Below, in pieces: positions 1,784 through 33,375 of a DNA stretch of 33,487 bases (positions are counted from its first letter, which is position 1; every line of letters starts with the position of its first letter). This DNA comes from Spirochaeta sp. (GTDB lineage: Bacteria; Spirochaetota; Spirochaetia; DSM-27196; Alkalispirochaetaceae), in NCBI GenBank assembly GCA_007117185.1, contig SKHA01000277.1, positions 1 to 33,487 of the forward strand, written 5' to 3'. A program made the position numbers and the translations under genes. The notes under the pieces were generated by a model. It worked only from the letters and a program-made list of their open reading frames with translations. It was not told where the DNA came from and ran no database searches.

Positions 1784-3667
1784 TCAAGCAACGCCAGAAT
1801 CGAGCATTCGTCTCAGTCTGGTGACCAGCTCCAGCGGTTCAAACGGTTTGAGCAACGTTTCGTCCTGCCCGGCGTCACGTTCAGCTCCGGAGAGGAGTAA
1901 CATGATTCGCGGCACCCGTTCCCCGGGGTTCTCGCGGAGGAGCTCGACGATCTCGGTGACGGAAAAGTACGGAGCTGAAAGGTCGCTGACGATGGCCGCT
2001 ACCCGGGGAAAGCGGCGCAGCATCAGTACCCCTTCCCCGACGGACCGCGCCGTCAGTGGGGTGTAGCCGTAGTGGCGCAATGTCTCCGCTACAAGAGCTC
2101 GCACCGACTCCTGTTCCTGAATGACCAGGATCGTCTCGTTTCCTCCCACTTCCAGTTTCTCTGTTGCCCCGATGGGGGCGTCCACGGATGAACCTTTGGC
2201 AATGGGCAGGAAGACGGAAAAGCGGGTACCGTGTCCCAGGGTGCTGCTGACGTCGATTCCGCCATCGCTCTCGTCTACTGCACTGTAGACGGTGGCCAGA
2301 CCAAACCCACTGCCCTGGGTCTCGTCTTTGGTGGTGAAGAACGGTTCAAAGATCTGCGGCAGGTGCTCCGGAGCGATCCCCTCTCCGGAATCGGTCACCG
2401 AGAGGACGGCGTAACATCCGCTGTCCAGAGTTCGATTTCGCACAGTTACCGGAGAGCGCAGTTCCTGAACTTCCGTAGTGACCCGGATGCTTCCACCGGA
2501 AGGCATCGCGTCTCTGGCGTTCAGAACCAGATTCAGCAGGATCTGCTGCAGCCGGTTGGGGTCAATGAACACCACCGCGTCGTTCCCGTCGTTGTCGAAA
2601 TCAAGGTTGATGTTCTCCGTCACCAACCCCTCGATCATCGACCGTGCCATTCCTATCAGCTCATGGAAAACGATCTCTTCCGGACGCACCACCGGCACCC
2701 GACTGAACGCCAGCAGCCGTCGCGTCAGTTCTGCTGACCTGCGGGCAGTGTCGTACAACCCGAAGATATTCTTCTTCAGATTGTCCTCATCAGGAGAATC
2801 GGCAACATCATCAAGGGCCAGACGGGCATAACCGAGGATCACCGTGACAAGATTGTTGAAGTCGTGAGCCAACCCCGCAGACAACCGTCCAACCGCATCC
2901 ATCCGCCGGGAGTGAGCCAGCTGTTCCTCTTTTTCCCGCATCGCCCGCTCACGGCGTACCTGCGGTGTGGTGTCCCGGATCACCCAGACGATGTATTCGG
3001 CCTCACCGCTGAGGGTGTGCCCCAGGACGGTCAGGGCGAGCTCGTTCTCGTTTTTCAGTCGCGTCCAGGGGATACCTTCGGAGCCAGGGCCCGACCGGGC
3101 CGCTTCGGTGAGCACTGACATGGGAACGTAATGTTCAAGAGGAACGTCCTGACCTTCCAGCTCGAACAGTGCAGCAGCCGCAGAGTTGGAAAAGAGAATG
3201 GACCGCTGATGATCGGTAACGACGATTGCCGTCTCGATAGCTTCCATCACCAGTGAGAGCAGCTGCTCCCGCTGTTCCATTTCCCGACGCATCTGATGCC
3301 GGTAGAGGGCCAGAACAACAGCGGTGCGCAGCTCCCGCTCCTCAAAGGGTTTAATGATATAGGCAAAGGGTTCGGTCACTTTTGCCCGGGCCAGAGTTTC
3401 CTCGTCAGCGTACGCGGTGAGAAAGATCACCGGGAGGTGGAATCGACGTCGTATCTCCTCGGCAGCGGTAACCCCGTCCATCTCGCCCTGCAAGTGAATA
3501 TCCATCAACACCAGATCGGGCAGTTGGGCATCCCGCGTCTCCAGAAACTCGATCGCTTCCTCAGCCCCGGGGAACGTCCCGGCTACTTCATGACCAAAAC
3601 GCTGCAGGTGCAGACGGATGTCGAGGGCGACGATCTGCTCGTCTTCTACAACCAGTATCCGTGCCAT
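1784..3667 (-). CDS. Hybrid REC-PAS-histidine kinase with C-terminal receiver-like domain
   Basis: N-terminal REC (ILVVEDE...LVLMDIHL...LTAYAD...IIKPFEE), PAS-like segment, H-box LSAGLAHDFNNLVTVILGY, N/G boxes (LVLNARDAMPSGG, SGEGIAPE, GSGFGLATV), C-terminal receiver-like region. Confidence 0.9.
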   Translation of the reverse strand: MARILVVEDEQIVALDIRLHLQRFGHEVAGTFPGAEEAIEFLETRDAQLPDLVLMDIHLQGEMDGVTAAEEIRRRFHLPVIFLTAYADEETLARAKVTEPFAYIIKPFEERELRTAVVLALYRHQMRREMEQREQLLSLVMEAIETAIVVTDHQRSILFSNSAAAALFELEGQDVPLEHYVPMSVLTEAARSGPGSEGIPWTRLKNENELALTVLGHTLSGEAEYIVWVIRDTTPQVRRERAMREKEEQLAHSRRMDAVGRLSAGLAHDFNNLVTVILGYARLALDDVADSPDEDNLKKNIFGLYDTARRSAELTRRLLAFSRVPVVRPEEIVFHELIGMARSMIEGLVTENINLDFDNDGNDAVVFIDPNRLQQILLNLVLNARDAMPSGGSIRVTTEVQELRSPVTVRNRTLDSGCYAVLSVTDSGEGIAPEHLPQIFEPFFTTKDETQGSGFGLATVYSAVDESDGGIDVSSTLGHGTRFSVFLPIAKGSSVDAPIGATEKLEVGGNETILVIQEQESVRALVAETLRHYGYTPLTARSVGEGVLMLRRFPRVAAIVSDLSAPYFSVTEIVELLRENPGERVPRIMLLLSGAERDAGQDETLLKPFEPLELVTRLRRMLDSGVA

Positions 3668-23657: not shown

Positions 23658-25121
23658 TCACGGGAGGGCTGTCTCACCCATCAGAAAGCGGTCTACCTCG
23701 CGGGCGGCTCCACGCCCTTCGTTGATCGCCCAGACCACAAGACTTTGACCGCGACGGGCATCACCGGCGGCAAAAACTCCCGGGATTGACGTTGCAAAAT
23801 TGCCGTATTGCGCCTTGTAGTTGCTGCGGGGGTCCCGCTCCAGCGCCAGCTCCTGGGCGATATAGTCCTCGGGCCCCAGAAAACCGAGGGCCAAAAGGAC
23901 CAGATCCGTTTCAAACTCCTCTTCGGTGCCGGGTATTTCTTCCATTTTCGGCGGTGAGCCGGGCTCTTTGACCCAGTTGACCCGCACCGTTCGCACCGCC
24001 TTCACCCGTCCCTCGTCGTCACCGATGAACTCCTTGGTGAGAATGGCGAACTCCCGGGGGTCCCGGCCGAACACCGCCGCCGCTTCCTCGTGCCCGTAGT
24101 CGGTCTTCAGGGTCCGGGCATAGGTCGGCCAGGGCATCTCTTCGTTGCGTTCCGAGGGCGGTTTGGGCAGTAACTCAAAGTTGAGCAGACTGGCGCAGCC
24201 ATGCCGGACAGAGGTACCCAGGCAGTCGTTGCCGGTGTCGCCGCCACCAATGACGATCACCTTTCGCCCCCTGGCGGAGATGTAGGCGCCGTCCTCGAAA
24301 TTGCTGTCCAGGAGGCTCCTGGTGTTCGCCTTGAGAAACTCCATCGCGAAGTGGATTCCCTCGAGGTCGCGACCGGGAACGGGCAGGTCCCGCGGTCGGG
24401 TGGCCCCGCAGGCAAGAACAACCGCGTCATGATGCTCCATAAGCTGTTGCGTCGGGATATCCCGGCCGACGTCGACGCCGGTCCGGAAGGAGATTCCCTC
24501 GGCGGCCATCATTCCGTTGCGCTTTTCAACAAGCTGCTTGTCCAGCTTCATGTTGGGAATCCCGTACATCAACAGTCCGCCGATGCGATCCTGACGCTCG
24601 TAGACGGTGACGGTGTGTCCCGCCTGGTTCAGCTGGTCAGCTGCGGCCAGTCCGGCGGGGCCACTTCCTACCACAGCGACGGTCTTCCCCGTTCGCACCG
24701 CAGGGACGCGTGGCTGCATCAGCCCGTTCTCGTACGCTCGGTCGATGATCGCTGCTTCGTTTTCCTTGATGGTCACCGGGGGTTCGTTGATTCCCAGCAC
24801 GCAGGCGTGCTCGCACGGCGCCGGGCACACCCGCCCGGTGTACTCGGGAAAGTTGTTGGTCTTCATGAGACGGTAGAACGCCTCGTCCCAGCGGCCGTTG
24901 TAAATCAGATCATTCCATTCGGGGATGAGGTTGTCCACGGGGCAGCCGTAGTTGGACTGGCAGAAGGGAACGCCGCAATCCATGCAGCGTGCTCCCTGGG
25001 TCTCCCGCTCGGGCTGATCCATCTCTTTCTTGAACTCACCGAAATGGCTGATTCTCTCTTTGGCGTCCACGTGAGTCGCGGTCTGTCTGTCAAACTCCAT
25101 GAATCCGGTAGGCTTACCCAT
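23658..25121 (-). CDS. gltD: Glutamate synthase small subunit
   Basis: Cys-rich Fe-S motifs ([44 protein letters not shown]), dinucleotide folds [17 protein letters not shown] and [15 protein letters not shown]. Confidence 0.96.
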
Positions 25122-28100
25122 GGATCACCTCCTCACCGTACTGCAACGCCGCGTCTTCACGGCCGTGACGACGCAGCTCTTCATCCCGCAATTCTTTGCG
25201 TTCATGCTGTAGTTCCAGAACCCGCCGATACTGCGGCGAGATCACCTTGACGAACTGGCCGCGCACGGTGGCCCAGTTGGCCAGCACCTCAGCGGCGCGT
25301 TCACTCCCGGTGTGACGGAGATGATTGCGAGCCATCGACAGGACTTCCTCATCGTCGGAGACCTCCAGGGGGAGTAGTTCTACCATCCCCGGGTTTGTGT
25401 ATTCCCGCAGGTTACCCGACTGGTCCCAGACCCAGGCGATCCCGCCGCTCATTCCGGCCCCGAAGTTCCGGCCCACCGCGCCCAGGATGAGCGCACGACC
25501 TCCAGTCATGTATTCCAGCGCGTGGTCGCCGGTGCCTTCAACAACAACGCGCACCCCGGAGTTCCGAACGCAGAATCGCTCCGCCGCCACCCCGCGAATA
25601 TACGCTTCGCCGCCGGTGGCTCCGTAGAACGCCACGTTACCGATTATGATGTTTTCTTCCGCAGCGAAGGACGATTCCTTCGGGGGATAGACGATGATAT
25701 GGCCACCAGAGAGTCCCTTGCCGACGTAGTCGTTGGCGTCCCCTTCCAGTTCAAGGGTCACCCCCTGGGCAAGCCAGGCGCCGAAACTCTGTCCGGCGCT
25801 ACCGGTGAACTTGACGTGCAGCGAGTCGTCGTCCAGTTCGTACGCACCGATCTGTCGAACGATCTCGTTGCTGAGCATTCCGCCGGTGGTTCGGTCGGTA
25901 TTGACGATGGGAAACTCCAGCGAGACCGCCTCGCGCTGCCGGAACAGCGGCTGTGCCGCCGCGATCAGCTTTCGGTCCAGCACCTCGTCGATTCCGTGGT
26001 CCTGGGGAATGCAGCAGACCACCCCGGTATGACCGCTGCCCACCGTTATCGGGGTGAGCAGCGCCGAGAGGTCCACCCCGGCGCTCTTCCAGTTGCGAAC
26101 TGTCTCGTCCACTTCCAGAAGATCAACTCGACCTACCATCTCCTCAAGGCGACGGAACCCGAGCTGCGCCATGATCTGGCGCACCTCTTCGGCGACGAAA
26201 CGCATCATGTTGACCACGTGTTCCGGCCGGCCGGCAAACTTTTTGCGCAGCTCCTCGTCCTGGGTGGCAATTCCCACCGGGCAGGTGTTCTTTTCGCACT
26301 TGCGCATCATGATGCAGCCCATGCTGATCAGTGCGCTGGTGGCAAACCCCATCTCCTCCGCACCGAGGAGCGCGGCGATTACCACATCCCTGCCCGTCTT
26401 GAGCTGGCCGTCGGTCTGCAGGACAACACGGCTCCGCAGATCGTTGAGCACCAGCGTCTGGTGAACCTCGGCGATGCCCAGCTCCCAGGGGAGCCCGGCG
26501 TTCTTGATACCCGTCAGGGCGCTCGCCCCGGTGCCCCCGTCGTGCCCGGAGATGAGAATGTGGTCGGCGTGAGCCTTGGCTACCCCGGCGGCGATCGTTC
26601 CCACGCCCACCTCGCTCACCAGCTTGACGCTTACCCGCCCCGAGGGGTTGGCATTCTTCAAGTCGAAGATCAGCTGGGCCAGATCCTCAATGGAATAGAT
26701 GTCGTGGTGCGGCGGCGGGCTGATGAGGCCCACCCCGGGGGTGGAGAAACGCGTTTTGGCGATCTCGTCAAAGACTTTGTGCCCCGGCAGCTCGCCACCT
26801 TCCCCCGGTTTGGCCCCCTGAGCCATCTTGATCTGCATCTCGTCGGAGTTGGTCAGGTATTCGATGGTGACCCCGAAGCGGCCCGAAGCGACCTGCTTGA
26901 TCGCCGAGCGCTTGCTGTCGCCGTTCTCCAGGGGCTGGTACCGCCGGCGGTCTTCCCCGCCCTCTCCGGTGTTGGACTTGCCGCCAATGCGGTTCATCGC
27001 TACCGCCAGAGTCTCGTGGGCCTCGATGCTGATGGATCCGTAGCTCATCGCCCCGGTGACGAACCGCCGCATGATCTCCTCTGCCGGCTCCACCTCATCC
27101 AGAGGTACCGCTGTTGTCCCGTCGGCGAACTTCAACAGCCCCCGCAACGTCGCCTGGGAGGTGCTTCGCTCGTTCTGCCGGGCGGTGTAGCGCCCGAACG
27201 CCTCGGTGTCGCCGGTTCTCACCGCCAGCTGCAGATCCGCGATGGACTCGGGATCCCACATGTGCTTTTCACCCCCGAAACGCCACTGATAGTCGCCGGG
27301 GTTGAGATACTCCGTACCGATCTGCTGGTTTCCCCGGGGGTACGCCGCTTCGTGGCGACGCAACGCCTCCTGGGCCAGCTGACCGAAACCGGCCCCCTGA
27401 ATCCTGCTGGCTGTCCCGGCGAAGCAGAACTCCACCACCTCATCGGCCAGCCCCACGATCTCGAAGATCTGGGCGCCCTTGTAGGACTCCAGGGTGCTGA
27501 TTCCCATCTTTCCAAAGACTTTGCGCATTCCCTTCTGAACCGCATAGTGATAGGCGTCAACAATCGCCTCGTCGGCCAGGTCCTGCCTGAGCTGGTTGTC
27601 CCGCTTGAGCTGCCACATCGCCTCGTAGGCCAGGTAGGGGTTGATCGCGTCAGCTCCGTAGCCCACCAGGGTGCAGAAGTGGTGCACCTCCCGAGGCTCT
27701 CCGCTCTCAACGACGATCCCGATCTGGGTGCGCTTGTGGCTGCGGACCAGCTGGTGATGAGCAGCTCCCGTTGCCAGGAGAGCACTTACCGGCACCCGCT
27801 CCGGTCCGGCTGAGCGGTCCGAGAGGATGACCAGACTGTACCCTTCGCTGATGGCGCTCTCCGTCTCCCGGGCGATCCGCTCCAGAGCTTCCTTGAGCCC
27901 CCCTTCGCCGGAGGCCAGTGGGAAGGTGCAGTCGATGACCCTGGATCGCCACCCCCGGTAGTCCATCTCCTTCAACTTTGCCAGATCCTGGTTGGTGAGG
28001 ACAGGATGATCCAGCCAGAGCCGGTGGGCATCTTCCGGGCTGTTCTCCAGGACGTTGCCCTCCGGCCCGATGTAGGAACCGAGGCTCATTATCACCTCTT

Positions 28101-29712
28101 CGCGGATCGAGTCGATGGGCGGGTTGGTGACCTGTGCAAACAGCTGCTTGAAGTACTCGTAGAGCAAACGAGACTTGTCCGAAAGCACCGCCAGGGGGGT
28201 GTCGTTCCCCATCGACCCCAGGGGCTCCACCGAGTTTTCCGCCATCGGCTTGAGAATCAGTTGCAGGTGTTCCAGGGTGAACCCGAAGGCGCGCATCCGC
28301 TCCAGAATTGTCTCGCTGTCAAGCCCGGGGGCGTCGCCTACTCCGGCGATCTCCTGCAGGGTCAAGCGCTGCTCTTTGAGCCACGCCGCGAAGGGATACC
28401 GAGCGGCAATACCGTTCTTCAGCTCCGTATCGTCAACGATGCGTCCTTCCTGGAAGTTCACCAGGAACATCCGTCCGGGCTGCAGGCGCCCCTTCTGGAT
28501 CACTTTTGCCGGGTCAATGGAGGCGACGCCAACCTCGCTGGCCATCACCACCAGATCGTCACTGGTAACATAGTAGCGGCTGGGACGCAGACCGTTACGG
28601 TCCAGTACCGCTCCGATCACCCGACCGTCGGTAAAGGCGATCGACGCCGGTCCGTCCCAGGGCTCCATCTGGGTGCTCATGAATTCGTACATCGCCTTGC
28701 CGACCTCCGGCATGTGTCGGTGGTTCTGCCACGCCTCGGGGACCATCATCATGATCGCTTCAGGAAGCTCCCGACCGGCCATCAGCAACAACTCAAGAAC
28801 GTTGTCAAAGTTTCCCGAGTCGGAGAGGTCCGGCTCGATCACCGGCAGCAGCTTCTTCACGTCATCGCCGAAGAGTTCACTCCGGAGGATACCCTCCCGG
28901 GCGCGCATCTTGTTGATATTGCCCCGGAGGGTATTGATCTCTCCGTTGTGGCTCATGAACCGCAACGGTTGCGCTCGGTCCCAGCTCGGGAATGTATTCG
29001 TTGAGAACCGACTGTGGACCATCGCCAGATGGGTTTCAAAGAGGGGGTCCGTCAGATCCAGGTAGTACTGGAAAAGCTGCTCCGGGGTGAGCATCCCCTT
29101 GTAGACGATATTTCTGGTGGAAAGGCTGCAGATATAAAAGAAATGGGAGCGATCGTTCTCGCCTCCCCGCAAGGTGTTGGTGGCCCGCTTGCGGATGATG
29201 TACAGCGCCCGCTCAAAACTGTCCCGATCCATATCGCCGCCGGCAGCAATAAAGACCTGCCGAATGACCGGTTCAGCAGCCAGAGCGGAAGGACCGATCA
29301 TGGAGTTGTCCCGGGGAACGTCCCGCCAGCCCAGAAAGCGCTGCTTTTCTTCGGCGATGATCCCCTCGAACTGAGCCTCGCATCGCTGCCGCTCGTTTTC
29401 GTCCTGAGGGAGGAACACAAGTCCTGCGGCAAACTTGCCTCGCTCAGGGAGGGTTACCTGCAGCTCGTTCCCGGCGATTCGTTCCAAGAGAGCGTGGGGC
29501 AGCGCCGTCAGGATACCCGCGCCGTCACCGGTATTCACCTCTGCTCCCACCGCACCGCGGTGGGTCATGTTCACGAGCACTTCCCGGGCCATCGGCACCA
29601 GGTCATGACTGGCGTTGCCTTTTATGTGGGCAACAAACCCCACGCCACATGCATCGTGTTCCCACTGTGGAGAATAAAGTCCCTGCTGCCCCGGTCTGGT
29701 TCTGCGCGCCAT
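25114..29712 (-). CDS. gltB: Glutamate synthase large subunit
   Basis: 1532 aa; N-terminal amidotransferase start ([13 protein letters not shown]), FMN/Fe-S region ([42 protein letters not shown]), GXGXG C-terminal domain. Confidence 0.97.
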
Positions 29713-29749
29713 CCTTGCTCCTTACCCAAAATCTGGTGAAAAAATACTA

Positions 29750-29766
29750 TGCAATTTCAGTGCCAA
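29750..29766 (-). promoter_or_regulatory. Sigma-54 (RpoN) -24/-12 promoter upstream of gltBD
   Basis: Minus strand TTGGCACTGAAATTGCA: GG to GC spacing matches -24/-12. Predicted TSS near 29739, then AAGGAGCAAGG before ATG at 29712. Confidence 0.75.
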
Positions 29767-29887
29767 GCGTCAATTATCCTTACAACTTATGTAAGCAAAA
29801 GGAGATACGCCACCTCAGGAATTCATACGCCAGCGTAGTTTCTACAAAGTTGTAGGGTATCCTACCATTTCGTCCTACGTAAACGTA

Positions 29888-31618
29888 TTACATCGACTCC
29901 AGAAAGGGAATGTTCAGTAACCCGAGACCGTGACGCATCACCTCCATCACCGCCATAGAGAGTCCCAGACGAAACGACCGCACCTTCGGATCCGTGGCCA
30001 CGGCAATGGGATGGTCGTGGTAGAACCGGGAGAAGTCCCGGGCGGTCTCAAAGAGGAACCCTGCCAGGAGAGACGGGTTGTAAGAGGCCGCAGCGTCTGC
30101 AACGACCTGAGGATAGCCGGACACTCGAAAGACCAGGTTCCACTCTTCATCAGCAAGCTCCGTCGGCGGCTCGACCTGCTCCGGGGCAGGCTCCTTGCGA
30201 AGCATGCTGGAGACCCGCGCCCCCACGTACTGCAGATACGGACCGGTGTTTCCGGTAAACGCCAGGGACTCTTCCGGATTGAAGATCATGTCCTTCACCG
30301 GACTGGTCTGCAGCAGGTAGTAATGCAGGGCACCGAGGGCAACCCTCTCAGCGGTGATAGCGGGATCTTCCAGGTGTTCTTCCCGCTCTTTGTTGCGGAT
30401 TTCTTCCCGGGCCAGGCCTGCCAACTGATCCAGCAGCTCGTCAGCATCCACCACCGTTCCTTCCCGGGACTTCATCTTGCCCTCGGGAAGGTTGACCATC
30501 CCGTAGGCCAGGTGATGAAGCGAATCCGCCCACTTCACCCCCAGACGACGCAACACCTCGAAGAGAACCTGGAAATGGTACCGCTGCTCACTGGCTACAA
30601 CATACACCAGGGAGTCAAAGGGCCAGTCGTCGTGACGCTGCATGGCCGTGCCAATATCCTGGGTGAGGTAGAGGGAGGTTCCATCCGCTCGCAGGAGCAC
30701 TTTTTTGTCCAGCTGAATATCTGTCAGGTCCACCCAGACGGTGCCTTTCTCATCCCGGGTGAAGACGCCGTCGTCAAGGCCCTGGAGGATTTTCTCGCGG
30801 CCAAGCAGATAGGTCTGACTCTCGTAATAGACTTGATCGAATGATATGCCGGTGCGGAGGTAGGTTTTTTCGATTCCGGAAATCGCCCAGTGGTTCATCC
30901 GTTCCCACAGCTGGTGAATACCGGCATCGCCCTGCTCCCACTCCTGAAGCATCTGCCGCGCCCGCTCTTCCGCCTGGGAGCCTTCCTTCTCCCATTGGGC
31001 GTAACGGACGTAATAGTCCCCCACGAAGTGGTCCGACTTCTTGCCCACCTCCTCCGGTGTCTGCCCCTGTCCGAACTGTTCATACGCCGCCATGGACTTG
31101 CAGATGTGGATCCCCCTGTCGTTGATCAGGTTGACCCGGCGAACCGTTGCCCCGGCGGCAAGGAGCATCCGGGCCACACTCTCCCCCAGGGCGTCGTTAC
31201 GCAAATGACCAAGATGGAGTGGCTTGTTGGTATTGGGGCAGGAAAACTCTATCATAATACGACGGCCCGCCAGTGCAGCGCTGTCACCCCACCGGCCCGA
31301 CGCTGCCAGCGCGGCGTTCACGGTAGCGGAGGCAACTACCGGACGGTTCAGAAAGATGTTGATATACGGTCCGGTGGCTTCCACCCGTCCGGCGTCGCCT
31401 GATCCGATAACGGTGGCAACCTCAGCGGAAATCTGCTGCGGACTTTTCTTAAGAACTCTGGCCAGCGGAAACATCGGGAAGGCGATGTCCCCGAGGTTTC
31501 GCTCCGGTGGGGTCTCAGGGTGTATGAGCCGGTCAATCTGGTCGCGATCCGAATCGGGAAACGCCCGCAGGACTGCGGTAGCAACAGCCCGCTTCCATTC
31601 AATGTGATACTGCTTCAT
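29888..31618 (-). CDS. argS: Arginyl-tRNA synthetase
   Basis: FSCPNTNKPLHLGHLRNDALGESVARML (HIGH-like), VVASEQRYHFQVLFEVLRRLG, GMVNLPEGKMKSREGTVVDADELLD; start MKQYHIEWKR at 31618. Confidence 0.95.
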   Translation of the reverse strand: MKQYHIEWKRAVATAVLRAFPDSDRDQIDRLIHPETPPERNLGDIAFPMFPLARVLKKSPQQISAEVATVIGSGDAGRVEATGPYINIFLNRPVVASATVNAALAASGRWGDSAALAGRRIMIEFSCPNTNKPLHLGHLRNDALGESVARMLLAAGATVRRVNLINDRGIHICKSMAAYEQFGQGQTPEEVGKKSDHFVGDYYVRYAQWEKEGSQAEERARQMLQEWEQGDAGIHQLWERMNHWAISGIEKTYLRTGISFDQVYYESQTYLLGREKILQGLDDGVFTRDEKGTVWVDLTDIQLDKKVLLRADGTSLYLTQDIGTAMQRHDDWPFDSLVYVVASEQRYHFQVLFEVLRRLGVKWADSLHHLAYGMVNLPEGKMKSREGTVVDADELLDQLAGLAREEIRNKEREEHLEDPAITAERVALGALHYYLLQTSPVKDMIFNPEESLAFTGNTGPYLQYVGARVSSMLRKEPAPEQVEPPTELADEEWNLVFRVSGYPQVVADAAASYNPSLLAGFLFETARDFSRFYHDHPIAVATDPKVRSFRLGLSMAVMEVMRHGLGLLNIPFLESM

Positions 31619-31653
31619 GAGGGCGCCAGCATACAGCAAAGAGCTCTACCGCG

Positions 31654-33375
31654 TCAGGCCCCAAAGGTCATGTACAGGCCGTTTTCCAGAGCACGGCGTT
31701 CAAGGGCGTCGATCTCACCAATGACGCCGGTCAAGCGTTGAAACCGGGCGTACAGGTCCCGCAGTTCTTCGATGTATTCGGCGTTGCGGCGACCACCGAT
31801 CTGGCCGTAGTTCGCGATTGTATCAAAGGAACTCCCCGGCCGGGAGTACAGCACCCCGCCAAGGACGTTCACCAGCATCTCCAGGGTAAGCCGGAAGTCA
31901 TGAACCAGTGACTCCATCTCCTGATCGATTCGTTCCATCGCCGTTTTCAGCCGTTGCGGGTCTTCGCCGGCCTGCAACGATAGCTCCTGAAACATACCGC
32001 CCCACCCCTCGGGAGAGCACAGCAGCTGTTCGATCTGCTCAACGCGGTCAGGGATGCCGTCGTAGCTGCTGAACACGTCGTTGTACTGGGCACGGTTGGA
32101 ACTCTTGTAAAAGTCTCCCGTTGTCAGCAGTATCCGCAAGGGGGGAATACTGTCCCGCCACATCCTGGTAACAAAGCTGTAGATAATCGCTGCGAGGTGT
32201 CGATGATGGCTGCGGAACCCCTCGGGATCGTCGGGCAATCCGGGAAAGGCCAGGCAGGAGCCCTCAATCACCTCTTCCAGAACCTGGATCTGGCCGCGGC
32301 CCTGGCGATTAAGGGAAACCTGAAGCACCTGCCGGGCGATCCGATCCTGAAAGGTGGATCGATAGAGGGAGATCCAGTCATTACCCCCGGCGATATCCTC
32401 GGGTTCCCACCACGGATCCTCCTTCATGACCCGTACCAGCGGAATTAACGGAATCCGGCAGGCAAAGCTGCGGAACACGTTCAGGCTGCTTCGTATGAGC
32501 TGGACCTTCCCGGAGAGGAGTTCCAGAGATGCGGTGCCTCCCGGCTGGGCGGTGTCCTGAGAATCCGCCAGGACAACGGTGCTGATAACCACCGGGTGGA
32601 CAGCTGTCGTGAGGGCATTCAGCTCCTTTGCCAGCGCCTCCAGCGAGCGTTGCAGATAATCCAGTGGACATACCTGAGTGGAATCCACCGCGTTGGCAGA
32701 GAAGGCGGCGATCATTTTCGGCAGGGGGAACTCCGCCAGCCGTCCCATCTGCTCAATCTGCCGGATCGCGTTGCGCATCTCCGCCGCCGAGCGGGCATCG
32801 ATATCCCGCAGAGACCGTTCCAGCTGCTCCATCACCGTCTTCTTCAGGACCCGCTCATTCTCCTCTGGAATATCCCGCAGCGCCTCCCGGGAGGTTCGCT
32901 TTAGCAGGTCATTGTGAACCTCCGGAAAGAACTCACCAGCCATCGCGGTAATCAACCGTCCCCGATCTTCACGGAGCGCGTCCAGCGCCGGAACAAGTCC
33001 CGCTGCGGCGGTCTGCATCAGCTTCAGCTCTTCCAGAAAGGGTTCCCGAAAGACCTTACGTCTCAGATCAGCGGACTTTCCCAGGGTACGCTGCAGCCGG
33101 GTAGTCATTGTTCTCAGCACCCAGGAGGTAACCACTTTCTCCCGGGTCGCACCGGAGAAGAGGGTCGCCAGAAAAAGAATGATCCGCTCCAGCAGGGAGA
33201 GCTGTTTCAGCCGGGTATCCAGGGACGGTGGCTCCAGATCCTCGCGGGAGAGCTCCGCCGGTTCCACCGAAAGAGCGTCTTTCCTGAGCATCTCCTCGAT
33301 TGAAGCGAGCAGTTCTTTACGGTCACTCGGGCTGAGGTCGCTGGAAAGGTTCTGGAATACGTCTGAAGTACCCAT
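31654..33375 (-). CDS. Large helical protein of unknown function (possibly a spirochaete-restricted DUF family)
   Basis: Complete 573-aa ORF in the same strand and packing as its neighbours; no catalytic motif recognised. Confidence 0.7.
   Translation of the reverse strand: MGTSDVFQNLSSDLSPSDRKELLASIEEMLRKDALSVEPAELSREDLEPPSLDTRLKQLSLLERIILFLATLFSGATREKVVTSWVLRTMTTRLQRTLGKSADLRRKVFREPFLEELKLMQTAAAGLVPALDALREDRGRLITAMAGEFFPEVHNDLLKRTSREALRDIPEENERVLKKTVMEQLERSLRDIDARSAAEMRNAIRQIEQMGRLAEFPLPKMIAAFSANAVDSTQVCPLDYLQRSLEALAKELNALTTAVHPVVISTVVLADSQDTAQPGGTASLELLSGKVQLIRSSLNVFRSFACRIPLIPLVRVMKEDPWWEPEDIAGGNDWISLYRSTFQDRIARQVLQVSLNRQGRGQIQVLEEVIEGSCLAFPGLPDDPEGFRSHHRHLAAIIYSFVTRMWRDSIPPLRILLTTGDFYKSSNRAQYNDVFSSYDGIPDRVEQIEQLLCSPEGWGGMFQELSLQAGEDPQRLKTAMERIDQEMESLVHDFRLTLEMLVNVLGGVLYSRPGSSFDTIANYGQIGGRRNAEYIEELRDLYARFQRLTGVIGEIDALERRALENGLYMTFGA

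Follow-up and report, generated by a model that had tools for sequence, protein, structure and literature searches.

A conserved sigma-54 promoter ahead of gltBD in Spirochaeta sp. and a predicted NifA-type activator acting through upstream palindromes

The glutamate synthase genes gltBD of this Spirochaeta sp. are preceded by TGGCACTGAAATTGC. Judged from comparison among relatives, this element is a genuine sigma-54 promoter that evolution has conserved. This promoter is probably driven by a NifA-type activator through palindromes of the form CCTACANNNNTGTAGG, within a shared nitrogen-assimilation regulon. In the proposed mechanism, RNA polymerase with sigma-54 would sit waiting at 29751-29765, and the activator (GAF-AAA+-HTH) would bind the CCTACANNNNTGTAGG palindromes 79-129 bp upstream. 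Under nitrogen shortage, the bound activator would loop to the polymerase and open the gltB promoter with ATP. The same activator and palindrome would serve amtB-glnK in the host and glnA, the type III glutamine synthetase gene and sometimes nifH in relatives; their recurrence at amtB-glnK, glnA and type III glutamine synthetase would place GOGAT in a common nitrogen-assimilation regulon. The sequence itself shows the promoter and its conservation, rpoN, the palindromes with the nitrogen genes that they accompany, and an activator gene that encodes GAFTGA. From gene neighbourhood and shared targets, we infer that the amtB-linked activator binds the gltB palindromes; a response of the activator to nitrogen, in which the neighbouring PII protein may take part, is likewise predicted, as is the direction of control at gltB and the co-regulated genes. 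This arrangement suggests that a NifA-type activator, of a kind usually associated with nitrogen fixation, turns on ammonium assimilation in these bacteria, although the host has no detectable nitrogenase.

The analysis covered a window of 33,487 nucleotides, the whole of contig 307 of the host genome (3.07 Mb in 393 contigs, estimated to be 80% complete). The large subunit of glutamate synthase is encoded by gltB (25114-29712; 1532 aa; NCBIfam NF008730, 1712 bits versus a cut-off of 1047), which starts with an ATG at 29712. The end of gltB is overlapped by gltD, which encodes the small subunit (23658-25121; TIGR01317, 762 bits versus 448). The upstream neighbour argS (29888-31639; TIGR00456, 468 bits versus 262) forms the edge of a 175-bp intergenic space, and all three genes lie on the minus strand. 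Elsewhere in the window, the gene upstream of argS (31654-33375, minus strand) encodes a protein of the uncharacterised family DUF5312, and a hybrid kinase with similarity to receiver, sensor and histidine-kinase sequences is located at 1784-3667 (minus strand).

The minus-strand letters at 29766-29750, TTGGCACTGAAATTGCA, contain TGGCAC-N5-TTGC at 29765-29751 with no mismatches, and the GG and GC dinucleotides are 10 bp apart. The first-pass annotation had described an RpoN-consensus match with this spacing and a good ribosome-binding site before gltB, and both descriptions are confirmed. The element (29751-29765, minus strand) ends 39 bp before the gltB ATG and is the single exact match in the window, where 0.05 were expected and 5 of 100 shuffles contained one. 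When C29751 is taken as position -12, the -24/-12 geometry alone places the predicted +1 12 nt downstream at about 29739 (minus strand), in agreement with the first-pass annotation, leaving a leader of 27 nt. The ribosome-binding site AAGGAG occupies 29723-29718, 5 nt before the ATG, and its AGGAG is kept in the genus alignment. The base that follows TGGCAC is T in the window and G in 24 of the 28 relatives that carry the element.

The regions upstream of gltB were taken from 51 relatives and scored for the -24/-12 element, and the scores split into two groups. The element is present in 28 of the 51 regions versus 1.08 in shuffled regions, and none of the 28 departs from GG or TTGC. It was found in 8/8 members of the family, including all 7 genomes of the genus. 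Three families of the order (f3, f4 and f6) lack the element upstream of gltB, and a search for a displaced sigma-54 element in these families found none; RpoN control of GOGAT is therefore not universal in the order. The host genome encodes rpoN (TIGR02395, 392 bits versus a cut-off of 277), which was detected in 59 of 61 genomes. Two checks that had been proposed earlier, the presence of rpoN and the conservation of the motif upstream of gltB, thus came out in favour of the promoter, and together they support the claim that GOGAT would be under RpoN.

It is very improbable that the -24/-12 match arose by chance, with gltB transcription coming instead from a sigma-70 promoter or from argS read-through. 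TGGCAY-N5-TTGC occurs at 17 sites in the genome versus 10 for the reversed control pattern, so the motif alone is weak evidence on a genome-wide scale. A sigma-70-like match (9/12) also overlaps the element, and a terminator scan found no terminator after argS. The significance of the promoter lies instead in its recurrence at gltB among relatives, far above the shuffled expectation given above. Within the genus, GG and TTGC are conserved, whereas the sigma-70-like match does not keep its TTGACG box.

Upstream of the -24/-12 element, the palindrome CCTACANNNNTGTAGG was found at 47 sites in 25 of the 28 regions versus 2.5 expected. Across the 51 gltB regions, 25 palindrome pairs are exactly 32 bp apart (0.02 expected), a spacing of approximately three helical turns. 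The core CTACN6GTAG occurs at 33 sites upstream of gltB versus 0.22 expected; in the whole host genome it is not enriched by itself (40 versus 56 in the control), so single sites are uninformative and pairs are needed. The window contains four palindrome units 79-129 bp upstream of the -12 element, all predicted on the minus strand. Unit 3, CCTACAACTTTGTAGA (29841-29856, centre -96 from the -12 element), is the best match to CCTACANNNNTGTAGG in the window with 1 mismatch, and its position is conserved in relatives. Unit 1, AATACGTTTACGTAGG (29874-29889, centre -129), has 4 mismatches, and unit 2, AGGACGAAATGGTAGG (29861-29876, centre -116), and unit 4, ACTACGCTGGCGTATG (29824-29839, centre -79), are degenerate; these three keep their register across the genus. 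When five genus members are aligned, the conserved blocks upstream of gltB are the palindrome units and the promoter. By sequence, the palindromes at -79 to -129 qualify as predicted upstream enhancer sites for an activator.

Two canonical sites were considered and rejected. The NtrC enhancer GCAC-N7-GTGC is absent from all 51 gltB regions, and the NifA site TGT-N10-ACA occurs at background level upstream of gltB, with none in the region of the host; it is also absent from the five nifH regions. A second motif, the ArgR-box-like TGCATAWWTATGCA, is enriched upstream of gltB and often touches the promoter (L018, L024, L028-L031 and others); its half-site form was observed in 14 of 51 gltB regions versus 0.6 expected. 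ArgR represses gltBD in Pseudomonas.

Unit 1 overlaps the argS stop codon (29888-29890), which would suit palindromes that form RNA hairpins or argS terminators rather than DNA-binding sites. This reading is the least probable of those considered: copies of the palindrome also precede amtB, glnA and the activator gene at a constant DNA spacing, and the terminator scan finds no terminator here.

The earlier annotation had also proposed control by an enhancer-binding protein. The host genome encodes many such proteins, and that part of the proposal stands; the NtrC type does not, as the data point to a NifA-type GAF-AAA-HTH protein beside amtB, predicted to act through a palindrome that the annotation had left unmentioned. 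This protein (L002, 517 aa) comprises a GAF domain, a sigma-54 activation domain and a Fis-type HTH domain, carries the GAFTGA motif and scores 565.5 bits against TIGR01817 (nifA; cut-off 528.85). Its gene is located directly upstream of amtB-glnK, with the PII gene directly after amtB. Orthologues were found in 53 of 61 genomes, and at most of the loci examined amtB follows the activator gene, with a sigma-54 element and palindromes in between. In the genus, the palindrome is also present just upstream of the start codon of the activator gene itself. The activator was not detected in G032, a fragmented assembly of 720 contigs, despite good palindromes. No convincing nifH was found in the 80%-complete host genome, where only weak ParA/Mrp-like matches were seen, and as far as this assembly goes the activator thus has no nifH of its own genome to control; nifH was detected in 5 of 61 genomes.

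Several activators with receiver domains are present in the host. One of them, L004, is encoded approximately 3 kb from rpoN and scores 469 bits against NtrX and 413 against ntrC, and an NtrX-like protein of this kind could drive gltB instead, in line with the NtrC-type proposal. A true NtrC may have gone undetected, since contig ends cut off three activators and the assembly is 80% complete. We regard an activator of this kind at gltB as improbable nonetheless. No complete candidate reaches the cut-off for NtrC or NtrX (the best ntrC score is 428 versus 558.6 bits), NtrC sites are absent upstream of gltB, and the palindromes are located at the NifA-type gene and the adjacent amtB.

The assignment to the NifA-type activator is consistent with the other genes that carry the palindrome. 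Patterns that combine the palindrome with a sigma-54 element were found 37 and 52 times among the 61 genomes, much more often than the reversed controls. Among the genes downstream of these matches are gltB, amtB, glnA, type III glutamine synthetase and nifH. Matches at a sigma factor gene, at a SEC59-like gene and inside coding regions were left out of the regulon because the upstream repeat is shaped differently or there is a single weak site. A sequence-only model was also built from 21 paired gltB-upstream sites and searched in the 61 genomes, with no promoter required. In the host genome it matched at E <= 1, on the rough E-values of so short a gltB-trained model, only upstream of gltB (29842-29887, a match to which unit 1 contributes) and in the gap between the activator gene and amtB (contig 98). 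Outside gltB, 27 of the 35 places that it found in the 61 genomes are at nitrogen genes or the activator gene (amtB 14, glnA 11, type III glutamine synthetase 1 and just upstream of the activator gene 1), as sorted by activator positions, the targets of the palindrome-plus-promoter search and fetched loci. In relative G052, which has one NifA-type activator, nifH has both the palindrome and a strong sigma-54 element, in line with the NifA identity of the activator. Three other nifH-bearing relatives, G025 (L303), G042 (L259) and G050 (L304), encode a second activator directly upstream of nifH, about 52-55% identical, and the amtB-linked one is also present.

Some palindromes are associated with promoters of another type. 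The glnA genes of the genus lack a sigma-54 element, and in 6/6 genomes the glnA palindrome lies right after a sigma-70-like -10 box, at the presumed +1. The glnA promoter of these genomes (L248-L253) reads TTTACA-N17-TATTTT, with the palindrome in a repressor-like position. In family f4 (G010, G017, G023, G028, G032, G040 and G043), the paired palindromes of gltB are kept and directly precede a conserved sigma-70-like TTGAC...TAAGAAT promoter, as if the sigma factor had been exchanged while the regulator stayed. A sigma-54 activator alone cannot explain activation at the sites of glnA, the activator gene and f4 gltB, because these promoters look sigma-70. It is thus conceivable, though unlikely, that the sigma-54 promoter is real and the palindromes belong to another regulator, a nitrogen-responsive repressor or a sigma-70-type activator, with the enhancer-binding protein using unseen sites or acting from solution. 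The three positions (+1 of glnA, just before the activator gene start and beside the f4 gltB promoter) are typical of ordinary repressors or activators, and a second protein may recognise the same palindrome. Against this, the palindromes and the -24/-12 element form the conserved blocks of the genus gltB alignment, and both the distance of the palindromes and their 32-bp spacing are as expected of an enhancer. Repression of sigma-70 promoters is also known for NtrC, so that both roles can reside in one protein; the simplest reading is a single protein that, like NtrC, is an activator at sigma-54 promoters and can act as a repressor at sigma-70 promoters.

This reading can be extended to the order, tentatively and with slightly less than even confidence. 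A NifA-family protein, retained in lineages that lack nitrogenase, would replace NtrC as general nitrogen regulator: it would activate gltBD, amtB-glnK and often glnA with sigma-54 through its own palindrome, and repress the sigma-70 promoters of glnA and of itself near the start. If so, NifA in this lineage is a general regulator of ammonium assimilation, with a nif role only where nif genes are present. For free-living spirochaetes, the analysis predicts a coherent regulon of nitrogen assimilation whose enhancer sequence is defined and whose activator is named. This prediction bears on the question of whether NifA was originally a general regulator of nitrogen metabolism.

In Proteobacteria, nitrogen genes are textbook targets of sigma-54, and the predicted system resembles two known regulators. 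Like enteric NtrC, which activates nitrogen assimilation with sigma-54 from tandem enhancer palindromes and can repress sigma-70 promoters, the activator would combine these three features; it differs from NtrC in the absence of a receiver domain, a score below the NtrC cut-off and a different palindrome. With NifA (TIGR01817) it shares the GAF-AAA+-HTH architecture, a score above the cut-off and GAFTGA. In contrast to NifA, the gene sits with amtB-glnK in a host (80% complete) without detected nifH, and the sites are CCTACANNNNTGTAGG rather than TGT-N10-ACA.

In Geobacter sulfurreducens, GS/GOGAT and other nitrogen-assimilation genes, including the gltB operon (GSU1239), have been assigned to RpoN (PMC2725144). 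Placing gltB under RpoN is the feature shared with the spirochaete; the phylum and the GOGAT gene arrangement are different, and the passages of that study consulted here name neither a NifA-type activator nor the CCTACANNNNTGTAGG palindrome (PMC2725144). The closest spirochaete parallel is EbpA-RpoN of Leptospira, in which a GAF-containing enhancer-binding protein controls amtB and is needed for low-nitrogen growth (PMC12655853). Compared by description, EbpA is FhlA-like with two GAF domains. The targets demonstrated for it comprise amtB and two lipoprotein genes, with glnA predicted only and gltB unmentioned (PMC12655853). A 2025 survey described sigma-54 nitrogen control in Spirochaetia as weaker and nif-centred, with nitrogen genes less enriched among the targets (PMC12316311). 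In the open-access literature searched, we found no report of the palindrome, of a NifA-type gltB regulator or of such a regulon in spirochaetes. Sigma-54 control of GOGAT is already known from Geobacter; the motif, the activator family and the spirochaete regulon are new. If the activator assignment is right, the novelty is a spirochaete nitrogen regulon in which a NifA-type protein fills the place of NtrC and uses an enhancer palindrome of its own.

RpoN elements were also observed at two genes of other kinds. A strong sigma-54 element, TGGCACGCTCCTTGC, precedes the gene of a 286-aa RpoD/RpoS-like sigma factor (L311:1655-2537, G000 contig 192; promoter also in L138), which adjoins flgG and a flgJ-like gene. 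In relatives L226, L234 and L237, a repeat resembling TACACA..TGTATACA lies upstream of the sigma-factor gene. A sigma-54 element ahead of an RpoD/RpoS-like gene resembles the RpoN-RpoS cascade of Borrelia, where the neighbourhood of rpoS is presumably similar to these flgG/flgJ-like surroundings; by this analogy, the cascade may be ancestral in spirochaetes. Another sigma-54 element precedes the gene of a small SEC59/phosphatidate cytidylyltransferase-like membrane protein in several genomes of this group (L136, G000 contig 180; L220, L221 and L245), and TACACA-type repeats are located upstream of this gene in relatives.
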